Below, piece by piece: positions 3,113 to 59,815 of a DNA stretch of 64,000 nt. Numbering within the stretch: position 1 is the first letter of the stretch; each line of letters opens with the position of its first letter. The notes under the pieces were generated by a model. That model made no database searches and was not told where the DNA came from. It was given only the letters and a program-made list of their open reading frames with translations. Position numbers and translations under genes: made by a program. This DNA is from Candidatus Peregrinibacteria bacterium (GTDB lineage: Bacteria > Patescibacteriota > Gracilibacteria > UM-FILTER-43-11): positions 1 to 64,000 of the forward strand of contig JAFGCR010000009.1 in the NCBI GenBank assembly GCA_016932495.1, given 5' to 3'.

Positions 3113-3481
3113 ATGCCCATCACTAGACAAGCGATCAAACGGGTAAAGCAAGATAAAGCCCGCACCGCGCGCAACAAGCATTACAACAACCACATGAAAT
3201 CCATGGTCAAGCTGATGCTTGGTTATATCCAGAAAAAGGAAACCGATAAAGCGGTCAAGATCTTCCCGAAGGTCGTCAGCGCTATCGATGTCTGTGCGAA
3301 GAAGAACCTTATTCATAAAAACAACGCGGCCCGTAAAAAAGCCCGTCTGCAGAAGGCGTTAAGCAATATTCAGAAAGGGGGAGGTGAAAAAACGGAACCG
3401 AAAGAGGTTAAAGAGGTAAAGAAAGCCCCGAAAAAGGAAAAAGCCCCTAAAACTGAGAAGAAAGCCGCTAAGAAAAAGTAA
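3113..3481 (+). CDS. rpsT: 30S ribosomal protein S20 with Lys-rich C-terminal tail
   Basis: MPITRQAIKRVKQDKARTARNKHYNNHMKSMVK...IHKNNAARKKARLQKAL. Confidence 0.93.
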   Translation: MPITRQAIKRVKQDKARTARNKHYNNHMKSMVKLMLGYIQKKETDKAVKIFPKVVSAIDVCAKKNLIHKNNAARKKARLQKALSNIQKGGGEKTEPKEVKEVKKAPKKEKAPKTEKKAAKKK

Positions 3482-3900
3482 TGAGCAAAGGTAAATACCT
3501 CGCCATTGATTACGGAGACCGTCGCGTTGGACTGGCCATATCTGATTTTGATAAACAGATCGCCTTCCCGCGCGATTTTTTGGAATATAAGAAAACCGAT
3601 GAACTGATTGATCAGATCAAAATATTCTGCAGGGAAGGGCAGATCATTAAGGTGATTGTCGGATTACCTGTGGAAATGGACGGGACAATGGGGGAACGGG
3701 TGATTAAAACCTACGAATTCGGCGATAAACTCAAAAAAGCCATCCATCCCACCCCCGTGGAATATTTTGACGAACGCCTGACGACCAAAGAGGCCACCAG
3801 AAAACTCCATCAGCAGGGAATTAAGGAGCGTGAGCAGAAAGGGCAGAAAGATATGGTGTCTGCGCAGATTATTCTGGAGGCATATCTTAAAAACATGTGA
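3481..3900 (+). CDS. ruvX: Holliday junction resolvase-like RuvX/YqgF
   Basis: LAIDYGDRRVGLAISD; VGLPVEMDGTMGE; YFDERLTTKEA. Confidence 0.92.
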   Translation: MSKGKYLAIDYGDRRVGLAISDFDKQIAFPRDFLEYKKTDELIDQIKIFCREGQIIKVIVGLPVEMDGTMGERVIKTYEFGDKLKKAIHPTPVEYFDERLTTKEATRKLHQQGIKEREQKGQKDMVSAQIILEAYLKNM

Positions 3901-3958
3901 CATTTGACAGGTAACATGTGACTTTTTTGGTCAGCTGTCAAAGGTCAATTGTCAAATG
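3893..3958. repeat. 4+4 heptamer hairpin between convergent ruvX and nadE
   Basis: ACATGTG ACATTTG ACAGGTA ACATGTG -acttttttgg- TCAGCTG TCAAAGG TCAATTG TCAAATG. Confidence 0.9.
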
Positions 3959-4676
3959 TAATAACAGGAGGTCCTTCGTTTTTATGCTCATTCGCCTTCA
4001 TCCGGTCAAATAGCTTCTGCTCATCCTCGGTTGATGGTTTTTTACCAGCTTCGAATTTTTTCAAAATCGAATCAATCTCCGCGTACTGCAGACCGATCTC
4101 TTCTTCATCACTCTGATCTCGCATCAGTTCTGCGGAGGCAGTTTTATGCACAATGATCTCCGGTAAGCCTAAATACTCACTCATTTTCCATACATCGGTT
4201 TTATAAAGGTTGCCGATAGGCAGTATATCCGTAGCGCCATCCCCGTGTTTTGTAAAATAACCCAGCATCAGTTCCGTCTTATTGCCGGTGCCCAGCACGA
4301 TGGCGTTGTGGGTATTGGCGTAATGGTAAAGAAGCGTCATACGCACGCGCGCCTGGATATTCATTTTAGCTAAGCTGGAAGACCGCCATGGCAGTTTTTC
4401 GTAGGCATCGATAAACGGGTTGATAAGAATGACATGTGATTGAATGCCCAGCTCCCTGGCCCAGTCGACGGCGTCCTGAACATTTTGGGGTTTATTTACG
4501 CCCTCATTCGGTAAGATCAGGGCGGTGACATTTTCTTTTCCAAGAGCCATCACACCCAGTTTAGCGGTTAGCGCGCTATCGACGCCGCCGCTTAAACCGA
4601 CAACCGCTTTTGAAATACCTACTTTTTTAAAGTACGCCGAAAGTTCAGCAACAATGTGGTCTGCTTTTTTCTGCAT
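3945..4676 (-). CDS. nadE: NH3-dependent NAD+ synthetase
   Basis: AVVGLSGGVDSALTAKL; LGTGNKTELMLGYFTKHGDGATDILPIGNLYKT. Confidence 0.94.
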   Translation of the reverse strand: MQKKADHIVAELSAYFKKVGISKAVVGLSGGVDSALTAKLGVMALGKENVTALILPNEGVNKPQNVQDAVDWARELGIQSHVILINPFIDAYEKLPWRSSSLAKMNIQARVRMTLLYHYANTHNAIVLGTGNKTELMLGYFTKHGDGATDILPIGNLYKTDVWKMSEYLGLPEIIVHKTASAELMRDQSDEEEIGLQYAEIDSILKKFEAGKKPSTEDEQKLFDRMKANEHKNEGPPVITFDN

Positions 4677-7161: not shown

Positions 7162-7171
7162 TTTTGATGAG

Positions 7172-7199
7172 TTATGAGTTAAGAGTTAAAAATTAAGAG
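7172..7199. repeat. Left arm of heptamer inverted repeat flanking the S23-like ORF
   Basis: TTATGAG TTAAGAG TTAAAAA TTAAGAG. Confidence 0.9.
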
Positions 7200-7207
7200 T
7201 TTTAATT

Positions 7208-7570
7208 ATGAAGAAGAGTATTGTGCAGGAAAAAAGTTATAACTTTGCCATCAAAATAATAAAGTTTTATAAAATTATAAATTTCCAAAAGAAAGAATTT
7301 GTACTGGCAAGACAATTGTTAAGAAGTGGTACATCAATTGGTGCAAATATTGAAGAAGCTTTAGGCGGACAATCTAAAAAAGATTTCATTGCAAAACTAT
7401 CAATAGCTAATAAGGAAGCTCGTGAAACTAATTATTGGATAAGGCTATTAAGAGACACAGATATCCTAAACAAGAATGATAGTGAGAAATTATTGTCTGA
7501 TTGTAGGGAATTGATAAAAATCATTAGCTCGATCTTACTTACATTAAAAAGAAAAACTCTTAACTCTTAA
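7208..7570 (+). CDS. Four helix bundle protein (S23/IVP-like)
   Basis: FYKIINFQKKEFVLARQLLRSGTSIGANIEEALGGQSKKDFIAKLSIANKEARETNYWIRLLRD. Confidence 0.88.
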   Translation: MKKSIVQEKSYNFAIKIIKFYKIINFQKKEFVLARQLLRSGTSIGANIEEALGGQSKKDFIAKLSIANKEARETNYWIRLLRDTDILNKNDSEKLLSDCRELIKIISSILLTLKRKTLNS

Positions 7571-7584
7571 TTTTTAACTCTTAA
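7557..7584. repeat. Right arm of heptamer inverted repeat flanking the S23-like ORF
   Basis: CTCTTAA CTCTTAA TTTTTAA CTCTTAA; 25-bp perfect inverted match between 7177-7201 and 7562-7586. Confidence 0.9.
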
Positions 7585-7595
7585 CTAAATAAAAA

Positions 7596-8914: not shown

Positions 8915-8951
8915 TTTTTTGTCATTCCGACCGAAGCGGAGGAATCCCTTA
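8915..8951. repeat. Left arm of GTCATTTCGACC-type inverted repeat
   Basis: TTTTTTGTCATTCCGACCGAAGCGGAGGAATCCCTTA. Confidence 0.75.
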
Positions 8952-8966
8952 ATGTAATTGGTGATT

Positions 8967-9260
8967 ATGCGTAGAAATTATGAATTTTATGTTTACATAA
9001 TGGCCAGTGAAAGCGGGACTTTGTATGTTGGTTTTACGAATTGTATTGAAGGAAGAGTTTATGAACATAAAAATGATTTAATCGATGGGTTTACCAAAAA
9101 GTATTAATGTCATAAATTGGTTTATTTTGAGGACCATCAGTATGTATTTAATGCGATTGATCGGGAGAAACAAATCAAAAAATGGCGACGCGAAAAAAAG
9201 CAGGATTTAATCAAATCTATCAATCCATCCTGGAAAGATTTGGCGGCTGATTGGCATTAA
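8967..9260 (+). pseudogene. GIY-YIG nuclease ORF interrupted by an in-frame TAA at 9105-9107
   Basis: MRRNYEFYVYIMASESGTLYVGFTNCIEGRVYEHKNDLIDGFTKKY*CHKLVYFEDHQYVFNAIDREKQIKKWRREKKQDLIKSINPSWKDLAADWH. Confidence 0.75.
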
Positions 9261-9261
9261 A

Positions 9262-9297
9262 TAAGGGATTTCTCGACAGGCTCGAAATGACAAAAAG
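9262..9297. repeat. Right arm of GTCATTTCGACC-type inverted repeat
   Basis: AAGGGATTTCTCGACAGGCTCGAAATGACAAAAAG. Confidence 0.75.
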
Positions 9298-9312
9298 AAT
9301 GACCACGATACC

Positions 9313-22892: not shown

Positions 22893-22900
22893 AATATCGT

Positions 22901-22988
22901 ATTGATTGCGAATTGACCGCGAATTGACACCGAATCGATTCGGAATCCATTCGCAATCTATTCGATATCCATTCGTAAACTATTCGAT
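22901..22988. repeat. Eight 11-bp units, inverted about the centre
   Basis: ATTGATTGCGA ATTGACCGCGA ATTGACACCGA ATCGATTCGGA ATCCATTCGCA ATCTATTCGAT ATCCATTCGTA AACTATTCGAT. Confidence 0.9.
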
Positions 22989-24496: not shown

Positions 24497-24536
24497 TATA
24501 CCGTAGAGACGCGATTAATCGCGTCTCTACGGTATA
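24497..24536. repeat. Perfect 40-bp palindrome at the recX 3' end
   Basis: TATACCGTAGAGACGCGATTAATCGCGTCTCTACGGTATA equals its reverse complement. Confidence 0.97.
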
Positions 24537-31744: not shown

Positions 31745-31749
31745 GGTTC

Positions 31750-31837
31750 GGATTGACTTCGTATCGACTGCGGATTGACTTCGTATCGACTAGTCTATCC
31801 GATATCCATTCGAAGTCAATCCGATGTCTATTCGGTA
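31750..31837. repeat. Eight 11-bp units, inverted about the centre
   Basis: GGATTGACTTC GTATCGACTGC GGATTGACTTC GTATCGACTAG TCTATCCGATA TCCATTCGAAG TCAATCCGATG TCTATTCGGTA. Confidence 0.9.
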
Positions 31838-45464: not shown

Positions 45465-46636
<1,172 letters not shown>

Positions 46637-46638
<2 letters not shown>

Positions 46639-46674
46639 TCTGAAGGCGGGATTCGCGAATCCCGCCTTCAGATT
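46637..46674. repeat. Perfect 38-bp palindrome downstream of tgt
   Basis: AATCTGAAGGCGGGATTCGCGAATCCCGCCTTCAGATT equals its reverse complement. Confidence 0.97.
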
Positions 46675-50026: not shown

Positions 50027-53000
50027 ATGACCAAGACCATTAAAAAAATATTATTGCTCGGCTCAGGCGCCTTGAAAATAGGTGAGGCGGGTGAGTTCGA
50101 TTATTCCGGTTCACAGGCCATCAAGGCGTTTAAGGAAGAGGGGATAAAAGTCGTCCTCATCAACCCAAACATCGCCACCAACCAGACCTCTAAGGGGCTG
50201 GCGGATAAGATCTATTTTCTGCCGGTCACGCCTTATTTTGTGGAGCAGGTGATCAAAAAAGAAAAACCCGATGCCATTGCCCTGAGCTTTGGCGGGCAGA
50301 CGGCGCTGAATTGCGGCGTGGCGCTTTTTGAAAGCGGCATTCTGAAAAAATATAAAGTCCAGGTGCTCGGCACACCCGTCAGGTCCATCCAGCTCACCGA
50401 AGACCGCCAGCTGTTTAAAGACGCGCTGGCAGAAATCAGGATAAAATCCCCCTTAAGCGTGGCCTGCACCACCATTCCGCAGGCGAAAAAGGCGGCCGTG
50501 AAGATCGGTTTTCCGGTTATGGTCCGCGCCGCTTTCGCGTTAGGCGGTTTGGGGTCAGGAGTCGCTAAAAATCAGGCAGAACTCAATACAGTCCTTAAAA
50601 AAGCGTTTGCCGCTTCGCCTCAAGTATTGGTCGAGGAATATCTGAAAGGCTGGAAGGAGATCGAATACGAAGTGGTGCGGGATAGTAAAGACAACTGCAT
50701 CACCGTCTGTAATATGGAGAATTTCGATCCGCTGGGAATCCACACGGGCGAATCCATCGTTATCGCGCCCAGCCAGACGCTCACGAACCATGAATACCAG
50801 AAACTCCGCAATCTCGCGCTTAAAACTATCCGGCATCTTAAGATCGTGGGCGAATGCAATATCCAGTACGCGCTTGACCCGAAATCCGATGATTACCGGG
50901 TGATCGAAGTCAATGCCCGCCTGTCCCGTTCTTCTGCCCTTGCCTCCAAGGCTACCGGTTACCCGCTGGCGTATGTGGCCGCCAAACTGGGATTAGGGTA
51001 CGGACTGACGGAACTAAAGAACGCGGTTACCCAAAAGACCTGCGCCTGCTTTGAACCGGCGCTGGATTATGTGGCGCTTAAAATCCCGCGCTGGGACCTG
51101 AATAAATTTCGTAAGGTGAGCGAGGTGATCAGCTCCGAGATGAAATCAGTGGGGGAGGTGATGGCGCTCGGGCGGAATTTTGAAGAAGTCCTGCAAAAGG
51201 GCCTCCGCATGATCCAGATCGGCGCGTATGGTCTGGAGCCGGATATGTTTGAATTTAAAAATCTGAAAGAAGCGGTCGAAACACCCACTCCCCGCCGTCC
51301 GTTTGCCTTGGCACAGGCGGTCGATAAAGGATATTCAGTCGAAAAGTTATACAAACTCACCGGCATCGATCCCTGGTTTTTACATAAGATTAAAAACATC
51401 CGCAAGATCGCCAAAAAGGTCAGAAAAGCCAAATCGCTTACCAGTATCTCCGAAGACCTGATGCGAATGGCCAAAAAAGCCGGTTTTTCCGATAAGCAGA
51501 TCGCCCGGATCTTAAAGGGGGATGAGATGACGGTGAGGGAATACCGGAAAAAACTGGGCGTCACCCCCGTCGTTAAACAGATCGACACCCTGGCCGCCGA
51601 ATTCCCTGCCAAGACCAACTACCTGTACATGACCTACTGGGGAGATAAAGATGATATCTCTTTTAAAAATTCGAAATTCGAAATTCGAAATTCGAAATTG
51701 AAGTCAAAAAAAGCGGTTGTAATAGGCTCAGGCCCGTATTGCATCGGCTCTTCCGTCGAGTTTGATTGGTGTTGTGTGAACGCGGTCAAGACTCTGCACA
51801 AAAAAGGATATGAATCCATTATGGTCAATTACAATCCGGAAACGGTGAGTACGGATTTTGATGAATGCGATAAGCTTTATTTTGATGAGCTCAGTCACGA
51901 ACGGGTCCTCGACATCGCGGATAAGGAAAAGCCTGATGGAACCGTCGTTTCGATGGGTGGGCAGATTCCCAACAACCTGGCACTTCGATTGGCGGAAACC
52001 GGCGTAAAGATCATGGGCACCTCCGTGAAAGACATCGACCGGGCGGAATCCCGCGATAAATTCTCCGCCCTTCTGGATGAACTCAAAGTCGATCAGCCGG
52101 AATGGAAGGCCTTTACTAAAATCGAAGACGCCTACCGGTTTGCGGATAAGGTCGGCTATCCCGTTCTGGTCCGCCCCAGTTATGTGCTGTCGGGTGCGGC
52201 CATGCGGGTAGCGCATAACCACGAAGAGCTGGAGGATTTCTTAGGCAAAGCCGTCCGCGTGAACACCGAAGCGCCCGTGGTGATCAGTAAATTCATGGTG
52301 GGCGCGCGGGAGATCGAAATGGACGCCGTGGCCCATAAAGGAAAGGTATTGATTTACGCCATCAGCGAACACGTGGAAGACGCGGGCGTACACAGCGGCG
52401 ATGCGACTATCGTATTGCCTCCGCAACGGACGTATTTAGAGACCCTGCGGCGTGTGAAAAAGATCGGCAAAGCCATTGCCAAGTCCCTTAAAATAACCGG
52501 TCCGTTCAACATCCAGTTCCTGGCCAAAGACAACCGTATCAAAGTGATCGAATGCAATCTGCGCGCCAGCCGGTCTTTCCCGTTTGTTTCCAAAGTCACC
52601 AAATACAACTTCATCGAGATCGCCATGAGAGCCATGGTCGGCGATGTGGATAAAAATGCCCGTTACCAGACGGTCGATCTGGATTATGTGGGCGTGAAAT
52701 TTCCTCAGTTCAGCTTCCCCCGGCTTAAAGGGGCCGACCCGGTACTCGGCGTCGAGATGGCCAGTACGGGTGAGGTGGCTTGCTTTGGAAATGATTTTGA
52801 GGCCGCCTTCCTTAAATCCTATTTGGCGGTGGGGTATAAAATACCCAAAAAGAACATCCTGCTTTCTGTTGGCCGGTTGAAAGACAAAGTCAGTATGCTT
52901 GGTGCTATCCGTCAGCTTGAAACAATGAAATTTAATCTTTTCGCCACAGAAGGAACGGCAAATTTTTTAAAGGAAAACGGCATCAAAACGACCAAAATCC

Positions 53001-56803: not shown

Positions 56804-56866
56804 ACATTTAACATGTGACCATTGACATGTGACATCGGTCAATTGTCAAATGTTAAAGGTCACATG
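56804..56866. repeat. 4+4 heptamer hairpin at the alr 3' end
   Basis: ACATTTA ACATGTG ACCATTG ACATGTG -acatcgg- TCAATTG TCAAATG TTAAAGG TCACATG. Confidence 0.9.
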
Positions 56867-57978
56867 TAAATCCGTGGGATTCGTTCATTTATACGTGTCG
56901 TCACTTCATAATTGATGGTCTGGCTTTGTTCTGCGATTTCTTCAGCGGTAATATGTTCCTTGCCCTGACATCCAAGCAATACCACTTCATCTTCCAGTTT
57001 TACACCTGGAATATCGGTTATATCCACCATGATCATGTTCATGCAAACCCGGCCGATGACCGGCGCCTTTTTCCCCCTTATCAGCACCGCCCCCCGATTG
57101 CTCAAAAGCCGTACAAATCCGTCATAATACCCCACAGGGATGATGGCGATCCGGCCGCTATGGGGCATTTCATACGTGCAGCCGTAACCGATCAGCGCCC
57201 CCTGTTTCACTTCCTTTACCTGCGCCACCACGGTTTTCCAGGTGAGGGCTGGCTTAAGGGTGATATCAATACCCGCCCGCTTAGCAGCCTGTTCGGTCTT
57301 GTCGCTGGGCCACAGGCCGTAATTGCCGATACCCGTCCTAACAAAATTAAAATACGCTTCCGGCAGTAAAATGGTCGCCGCGGTGTTGGCGCAATGTCGG
57401 TAATGAGGGGCATGACCGCTTTTTTCCAGTAAATGGACGGCTTTATTAAATTCTTTCAGCTGATAGAGCGCGTATTCATGGTTGATGCGGTCTTCCAGAT
57501 TGGCAAAATGCGTCGAGACCCCTTTTAATATAAGGTGCGGGTGTTGTTGCACCTGCCGGATGAAATCAGGAAGGTCGGAAAGTTCAATGCCCTGGCGGTG
57601 GTTTCCGGTCTCGATTTTTAAGTGAATGCCGACTTTTTTTCCGATTTTTCCTAATTTTTTCACGGTTTCCAGATTATAGACCACCAGTTCCGTATTAACC
57701 GGCAGATCAGTTAGATCCGACAGGGGAGTGTAGCCGATGATCAGCAGGGGGATTCTGATGCCGGCTTTTCGCAGGATCTTAGCTTCAAAAAGCGCGTTTA
57801 CGCATAAATAGTCCGCCCCGTTCTCTTCAAAGATCCGCGCACACTCCGTAAGGCCATGGCCATACGCGTTGGCTTTGACCGCGGGCGCCAGCACCACCTC
57901 TTTTCCGACCAGTTTACGGAACATTTTCAGGTTATGCACCAGAGCCGGTTCGCTGATTTCCACCCACGTTAAATCCAT
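56860..57978 (-). CDS. alr: Alanine racemase
   Basis: LAPAVKANAYGHGLTECARIFEENGADYLCVNALFEA; GIGNYGLWPS; RVCMNMIMVDIT. Confidence 0.95.
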   Translation of the reverse strand: MDLTWVEISEPALVHNLKMFRKLVGKEVVLAPAVKANAYGHGLTECARIFEENGADYLCVNALFEAKILRKAGIRIPLLIIGYTPLSDLTDLPVNTELVVYNLETVKKLGKIGKKVGIHLKIETGNHRQGIELSDLPDFIRQVQQHPHLILKGVSTHFANLEDRINHEYALYQLKEFNKAVHLLEKSGHAPHYRHCANTAATILLPEAYFNFVRTGIGNYGLWPSDKTEQAAKRAGIDITLKPALTWKTVVAQVKEVKQGALIGYGCTYEMPHSGRIAIIPVGYYDGFVRLLSNRGAVLIRGKKAPVIGRVCMNMIMVDITDIPGVKLEDEVVLLGCQGKEHITAEEIAEQSQTINYEVTTRINERIPRIYM

Positions 57979-57986
57979 AAACGAAG

Positions 57987-58073
57987 TGACGTTATGACAA
58001 TATGACGATATGACAAAAGGGCAACGATATCAACAAGTCTGCCTTGTCATTTCGTCATATCGTCGTTTCGTTA
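57987..58073. repeat. 4+4 octamer inverted repeat between alr and ftsL-like genes
   Basis: TGACGTTA TGACAATA TGACGATA TGACAAAA ... CCTTGTCA TTTCGTCA TATCGTCG TTTCGTTA. Confidence 0.9.
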
Positions 58074-58460
58074 TTTAGACGCAATCGCCGTATCTCCGCG
58101 GATAAACAGCGGCGTGTCGGTTTTGACCATCCTCTGGATCTTCGGGTCGTTCTGAATATTGGCAAGCGCCTGCACACGGGCGATCTCCATATCCCACACC
58201 TCGTTTTCTGTCAAAAGCTGGGAGCGCTGGACTTCCAGATTCTTTAAAGCATAGCCTTTGGTGGCGTTTTGGTTGGAATTGGCGAGGTACGCAAGACTGA
58301 TAAACGCTACAAGAGCGATAATTACAAATACGAGCGCATTAACACCCACCTCCACTTTGTGAGATAGCGGATCTCGTCGCACTTTTGTTGGGTTATTGTC
58401 TATATAAAGTGCTGCAGACATGAATCTATGTGTTTGTGTCGGGCAGTTGAGGTTGATCAT
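58071..58460 (-). CDS. FtsL-like single-TM coiled-coil protein
   Basis: TM ALVFVIIALVAFISLAYLA plus short coiled coil; directly downstream of rsmH. Confidence 0.6.
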   Translation of the reverse strand: MINLNCPTQTHRFMSAALYIDNNPTKVRRDPLSHKVEVGVNALVFVIIALVAFISLAYLANSNQNATKGYALKNLEVQRSQLLTENEVWDMEIARVQALANIQNDPKIQRMVKTDTPLFIRGDTAIASK

Positions 58461-59401: not shown

Positions 59402-59466
59402 ACATATGACATCTGACAGCTGACATCTGACAGAAAGGTCAAATGTCAAATGTCAGGTGTCAGATG
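59402..59466. repeat. 4+4 heptamer hairpin upstream of rsmH
   Basis: ACATATG ACATCTG ACAGCTG ACATCTG -acagaaagg- TCAAATG TCAAATG TCAGGTG TCAGATG. Confidence 0.92.
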
Positions 59467-59815
59467 TTTATAAAAAAATCAGTCATGGCATTCAGATATT
59501 ACGTAAATAATGGCGTGCCAGACGGATTTAAATTTGTTATAAAAATTCATCGTATATTTTTTAGTTTTGCCCTTCAGTTACCAATTTAAGCTGTATAAAT
59601 TTTTTGGTCAATAACAAATTTTGTGTTCAACTTTTGACACCATGTCCAAGTTGTATACATTTTTGGTTCAGGAAAGCGGAAAAGTAACAATTTTGTTACA
59701 GAAAAAATTGGTTGTCATATACAGAAAATATTTTTAAATAATTTAATTTTTTCATGTATGCTTGATAGGCGATGATTTTTTCGTTATGCTTTCACACGCA
59801 AATTTAAAAAAACAC

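Follow-up and report, generated by a model that had tools for sequence, protein, structure and literature searches.

The 64,000-nucleotide stretch of a Candidatus Peregrinibacteria genome analysed here (the window) carries ruvX and nadE in convergent orientation, with a hairpin at 3893-3959 whose arms hold the 3' ends of both genes. The hairpin is 1 base longer than the initial annotation gave (3893-3958). The features of this junction are:

3481-3900, plus strand: ruvX (PF03652), 3' end within the left arm
3893-3922, plus strand: left arm, made of TGACANN-type heptamers and holding the ruvX stop (3898-3900); its polarity is that of the arms of the TGACANN IVP elements described below
3923-3929, no strand: loop TTTTTTG, 7 nt
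3930-3959, minus strand: right arm, the same words inverted, holding the nadE stop (3945-3947) and the last four NadE residues, TFDN
3945-4676, minus strand: nadE (PF02540), 3' end within the right arm

The stop codons listed in the initial annotation were all found at their positions. Stops on the plus strand fall at 3898 (TGA), 3905 (TGA), 3912 (TAA) and 3919 (TGA), and TCA, which is TGA on the minus strand, falls at 3931, 3938, 3945 and 3952 of the right arm, covering all three frames in either case. ruvX does terminate on the first left-arm stop (AAC ATG TGA, ending at 3900) and nadE in the right arm (ACA TTT GAC AAT TGA, ending at 3945). Both stop codons come from the hairpin, which leaves no frame open from either approach. 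All frames are closed because the 7-letter repeat word contains TGA. When a repeat unit holds a stop and its length is not a multiple of 3, every frame is closed automatically, and a copy that abuts two convergent genes therefore ends both.

The fold of 3893-3959 beat all 200 dinucleotide shuffles on either strand (z -3.6 and -4.4), and an Rfam scan of the window returned two tRNAs and nothing else. We searched the 1.175-Mb genome with TGACANNTGACANNTGACA, the TGACANN triple-unit pattern, allowing at most 1 mismatch, and obtained 77 matches, compared with 1 for the reversed control, demonstrating that the recurrence of the pattern is not due to chance. Other statistics for this genome come from 454 kb of stretches and from whole-genome pattern searches. 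Non-coding arrays in the 454 kb had periods of 7 (41 arrays), 11 (12), 8 (5) and 14 (5), more rarely of 22, 12, 10, 5 and 19 (2 each) and 6 (1), and an order-1 Markov control sequence contained one array in all. Genes were called with a simple longest-ORF caller, which makes stops reliable and starts less so. Hairpin counts are lower bounds, because the strict hairpin threshold misses 3893-3959 itself, and the hairpin scores of AT-rich words are noisy. Further copies and arrays in the window are:

22894-22986, no strand: hairpin of an 11-bp word (CGNATNGACNN) at the nusA end
31748-31834, no strand: hairpin of an 11-bp word, upstream of a solute-binding-protein gene
46040-46073, plus strand: stop-free (AAATTCG)n array inside tgt
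51667-51699, plus strand: stop-free (AAATTCG)n array inside carB
56808-56870, no strand: further TGACANN solo (gene-less) hairpin
57984-58076, no strand: hairpin of an 8-bp word (TGACGANN), within which the right-hand gene ends
59409-59467, no strand: TGACANN solo hairpin in the gap between divergent mraW-like methyltransferase and M16 peptidase genes

The array in tgt lies within a segment whose length varies among relatives (the rows of three loci were left out of the Tgt alignment), and that in carB lies just before the second pre-ATP-grasp domain. Perfect palindromes of 20 and 19 bp, at 24497-24536 and 46637-46674, adjoin gene ends; they are non-periodic and of ordinary G+C. Hairpins of the CGAAATCC type (L037:2089-2209, L037:5419-5541, L082:16190-16320 and L082:19080-19200) have a loop of about 60-70 bp instead of a short one, and in the two copies of this type in the relative G001 the loop includes CAAAACGTTTTG or a close variant of it, apparently a conserved interior.

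At two loci, TGACANN arrays paired at a distance of about 470 bp enclose genes of the family PF05635 (23S rRNA-intervening-sequence protein, IVP), and the window contains one such arrangement with another word:

7167-7205, plus strand: left AGTTAAG array of the full IVP element
7208-7570, plus strand: IVP gene (PF05635) of 120 aa, closest solved structure 2rld, its stop inside the right array
7550-7586, minus strand: right, inverted AGTTAAG array of the same element

PF05635 matched 11 times in this genome and 0-16 times in the relatives searched. Periodic hairpins were nearly absent from the 20-60 kb sampled of four genomes with 0-1 copies (G003, G009, G015 and G018); G004 is an exception, with one IVP gene yet many 9-bp solos. 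We then scored the inverted repeat from flank to flank at 79 IVP loci of this and 18 related genomes. A score of at least 14 was reached at 62 loci, the other 17 falling below it, as opposed to 0 of 300 cross-paired flanks and 7 of 141 other small genes, a control set from which IVP genes were not excluded. The same was seen outside these genomes: matching inverted flanks surrounded all 12 IVP genes taken from named plasmids of five phyla, and were 7-bp periodic in all but one. This sample was drawn from the spread of matches and covers Nostoc, Anabaena, Dolichospermum, Planktothrix, Euhalothece, Bernardetia, Treponema, Chlorohelix and Monoglobus. Cross-pairs within it reached at least 14 in 13 of 132 cases, at least partly because the Nostocales share the word TAATTCG. 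The 50 kb of pNPUN02 hold only two heptamer arrays, both of them beside the IVP gene. Thus IVP genes are associated with inverted arrays of a repeated word.

Some of these loci have features of their own. In the Anabaena cylindrica plasmid pANACY.01 (L299) an IVP gene with (AAGTAAA)n flanks lies between cas2 and cas1, and in Monoglobus (L308) one lies between restriction-modification genes. One IVP lineage found in five genomes (L227, L228, L240, L258 and L224) carries, in place of a short word array, a terminal repeat that is conserved and hardly periodic (TCTGGCAATTGCATTC...).

The word follows the lineage of the IVP protein. The nearest IVP relative in another genome shared the word (top 5%) in 26 of 66 cases, where 3.3 were expected, and the correlation between word and IVP-protein similarity (Mantel rho 0.13) exceeded the maximum of 500 permutations (0.120); it is small because the majority of IVP pairs are too distant to have a word in common. 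Where words are most strongly shared, also between taxonomic families, the two IVPs nearly always rank among each other's closest. The arms of 3893-3959 scored 21, 21 and 15.5 against the three TGACANN IVP elements, of which this genome has two and another family one, and at most 9 against any other. In a prospective test, made once the hypothesis had been formed, the next-closest relatives of the TGACANN IVPs, at 71% in G058 (another family) and 61% in G002, proved to have inverted TGAC-type heptamer flanks, and those further away, at 55%, 48% and 39%, had other flank words.

The hairpin at 3893-3959 consists of two arrays of a single word, inverted relative to each other, and it shares both word and polarity with the arrays that flank IVP genes. 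It encloses no PF05635 gene, which is a feature of the full form only, and since its loop is only 7 nt it is the solo form. Solo hairpins carry the words of IVP elements, in the same polarity: those matching the IVP arms of their own genome did so in the same versus the opposite polarity by 14 to 0 in G000, 5 to 0 in G001 and 2 to 0 in G007. For several solo families of this genome, such as TCGTGNN and ATTGAAA, no IVP partner was found.

We also compared orthologous junctions. Several relatives also have ruvX and nadE in convergent orientation, and heptamer arrays occupy the junction in G001, G006, G007 and G012, with a different word in each; in G019, an order-level relative, the two genes overlap and no element is present. 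In G001 the word of this junction, of the TTTCTGATCTCAGA type, also flanks an IVP gene (C7:175737). Between the window and the syntenic G001 contig C7, many orthologous gaps differ in the presence of an element or in its word. The gaps between rpsT and ruvX and after nadE have an element only in G001, and the elements at 22894-22986 and 57984-58076 are present only in the window. The presence of the elements is therefore lineage-specific. Neither a target-site duplication nor an exact empty site was established between the window and G001 C7.

We think that 3893-3959 is probably a gene-less, or solo, copy of a repeat family that we term IVP elements. A full IVP element consists of a PF05635 gene, usually of 115-135 aa and encoding a four-helix bundle, between two inverted arrays of a degenerate word, each roughly 20-50 bp, and a solo element consists of the two arrays and a short loop. 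Each IVP lineage has its own word (TGACANN, TTANGACTW and others, mostly 7-12 bp), and solos carry the words of the IVP elements of their own genome with polarity kept. The IVP protein may recognise its own word and act in trans on solos, and could in this way help full and solo elements to spread or persist. It is mainly the gaps between genes that tolerate elements. To our knowledge, PF05635 has no known catalytic activity. The model therefore lacks a mover, and cutting or copying would be done by another enzyme. Rather than a stem kept complementary base by base, the arms resemble a pair of independent arrays of a single recognised word; speculatively, four to five units per arm would suit one word per IVP subunit.

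Another class of explanation, which we regard as unlikely, holds that IVP is a regulator that binds DNA or RNA at the arrays, which would be autoregulatory beside its gene and targets elsewhere as solos, so that nothing is mobile and sites arise through local slippage and selection. The co-inheritance of word and IVP agrees with this, as does the behaviour expected of a motif read by a protein: the fixed word positions are conserved, and between paired units the variable NN positions match in 15 of 36 cases, no better than shuffled (14.7 expected; only 18 unit pairs). But arrays inverted on both sides of a gene, together with a gene-less form, resemble the termini of an element more than they do operators, and neither the high presence/absence variation at orthologous gaps nor the many unrelated words per genome speaks for a set of regulatory sites.

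Could the hairpin be a bidirectional intrinsic terminator, or a structure stabilising the mRNA 3' ends of ruvX and nadE? It folds stably on both strands, it lies between convergent genes, GTTTTTAAG, a T-run, comes next after it on the minus strand, and other words fill the same junction in relatives. However, 81 periodic hairpins showed no downstream T enrichment and a G-U versus A-C count of 51 versus 59, a terminator scan listed no site at 3893-3959, and the G+C-rich stem followed directly by a U-tract that defines an intrinsic terminator was not found there. Moreover, periodic hairpins in this genome occupy 8 of 52 divergent gaps of at least 50 bp, as against 5 of 44 convergent ones, so that convergent gaps are not enriched. 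We consider this explanation improbable, and a secondary effect on transcript ends is possible if the hairpin is an IVP element. Selection for pairing at the RNA level was rejected separately: there was no excess of G-U over A-C in the sense RNA, no U-tract and no covariation at the NN positions.

Neutral slippage, with tandem heptamers produced during replication, inverted arms produced by template switching and no protein dedicated to either, appears very improbable. Heptamers are over-represented in bacteria generally, according to work cited in PMC4679880 and PMC4692102. Yet identical words in identical polarity turn up at many loci, and in different genera where the IVPs are related; the NN positions are not copied between arms; the arrays of pNPUN02 stand only beside its IVP gene; and the flanks present at every one of the plasmid IVP genes are hard to reconcile with slippage.

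The initial annotation had proposed that the hairpin is selected as a translation stop in all frames and on both strands. Gene ends bear this out in part: all frames were closed within 24 nt at 35% of ends with an element and 4% of other ends, the enrichment that had been predicted, but at 12 of 54 element-bearing ends no frame was closed. Unit lengths of 7, 8 and 11 describe most arrays of this genome; 12-bp arrays occur there too, and 9- and 12-bp units are common in relatives, which contradicts the expected absence of lengths divisible by 3 and is the very result that had been named as refuting it. TTANGACTW, a family of 9-bp units, was matched 22 times in G004 and 16 times in G007, and its gene-end hairpins, designed as 3893-3959 is, close at most two frames; 12-bp units are present in G001, G006 and G007. 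Comparison of the C-termini in relatives, also suggested at the outset, showed that the NadE core ends ..PPxI and that the last residues and the stop vary with the array; at the orthologous ruvX-nadE junction the stop comes from the array in some species and from before it in others. Outward stops outnumbered inward stops in 38 hairpins of this genome, with 7 showing the reverse, but the excess was as strong between divergent genes (7 versus 0) and nearly absent in other genera (13 versus 8): stop polarity belongs to the word. The polarity in divergent gaps counts against a stop function, since no ribosome approaches there from outside. All-frame stops of TAACTGA heptamers were already noted by MacGregor 2015 (PMC4679880), where they are read as a limit on repeat placement. 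The best reading is that the stops are a by-product, a consequence of TGA in a 7-bp unit and of filtering of the sites where arrays are tolerated. In view of the 9- and 12-bp families of the same hairpin design, the stop-free families at gene ends and inside genes, and the divergent-gap polarity, a purpose-built stop is hardly credible.

Other gene families also lie between inverted repeats. At 8920-9300 of the window, a GIY-YIG gene with an internal stop (matched at 8985-9200) is bordered on both sides by inverted repeats of the GTCATTCCGA...TCGAAATGAC type. We considered whether GIY-YIG genes are a further cargo of the word arrays and rejected this, as their inverted repeat is different and non-periodic (GTCATTC...GAATGAC type); with inverted flanks scoring at least 14 at 10 of 25 loci in relatives, they form a parallel, non-periodic class. 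PDDEXK_3 genes had such flanks in 3 of 5 cases, weakly periodic. PDDEXK_3 genes of the GxxExxY type stand between inverted CTGATT-type repeats at L262 (G001:C7:12761-13099), L263 (G000:C41:2929-3267) and L264 (G007:C38:72198-72539). One PDDEXK_3 gene of G001 fills the gap that holds the IVP element in the window, and repeats like these also form solo hairpins there.

The closest known arrangement is the 23S rRNA intervening sequence (IVS), for example that of Coxiella burnetii, a small PF05635-type (S23p/IVP) ORF with complementary termini that form a stem (PMC4990558). Full IVP elements share this plan, but the IVS lies in rRNA helices and is excised by RNase III, whereas IVP elements lie between protein genes, have arms made of lineage-specific word arrays and commonly occur as gene-less copies. 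In particular, 3893-3959 is not located in an rRNA gene but between ruvX and nadE. REP sequences with RAYT transposases and MITEs have short palindromic solo copies and a protein-coding relative, and IVP elements may be compared with them in how they would work. They differ in that IVP is a four-helix bundle and not a transposase, that the arms are word arrays, and that target duplication is not established. MITEs are marked by a target-site duplication and an autonomous partner with matching termini, and for 3893-3959 a partner with matching termini was found. By protein family, IVP is comparable to Avd, the accessory protein of diversity-generating retroelements, which PMC10053308 describes as homologous to PF05635 proteins; this paper and a title in its reference list also indicate that a PF05635 member forms an assembly of five four-helix bundles.

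Intergenic heptamer repeats have been published as TAACTGA of Beggiatoaceae (PMC4679880), STRR of cyanobacteria and GGGAATC of Xanthomonas (PMC4692102). As far as the consulted portions of these reports go, they are intergenic 7-bp arrays with all-frame stops in one orientation and overlap with ORF ends, as here, and 3893-3959 is likewise built of intergenic tandem 7-bp units; the same portions describe direct repeats and report neither an IVP link nor paired inverted arrays, both of which are found here. Our search of the open-access literature returned papers on heptamer repeats and on the IVS, none joining arrays to IVP genes; subscription journals lay mostly outside it and novelty is provisional.

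Inverted arrays around IVP genes of several bacterial phyla may explain the long-puzzling heptamer repeats of bacteria. We put forward, tentatively and at somewhat less than even confidence, that IVP elements form a mobile class spanning phyla: an Avd-like protein with no catalysis of its own would read the heptamer-type word peculiar to it in the inverted arrays, and would mobilise solo and full copies alike by borrowing enzymes. The STRR of cyanobacteria and the TAACTGA repeats of Beggiatoaceae would then be termini and remnants of such elements. These data link the widespread PF05635 four-helix-bundle genes, known mainly from rRNA intervening sequences, to abundant intergenic heptamer repeats. 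If the link is true, the origin of these repeats would become directly testable, the flanks of an IVP gene would reveal the nucleic-acid target of its protein, and many of the apparent gene-end hairpins and C-terminal extensions of these genomes would be what is left of elements.
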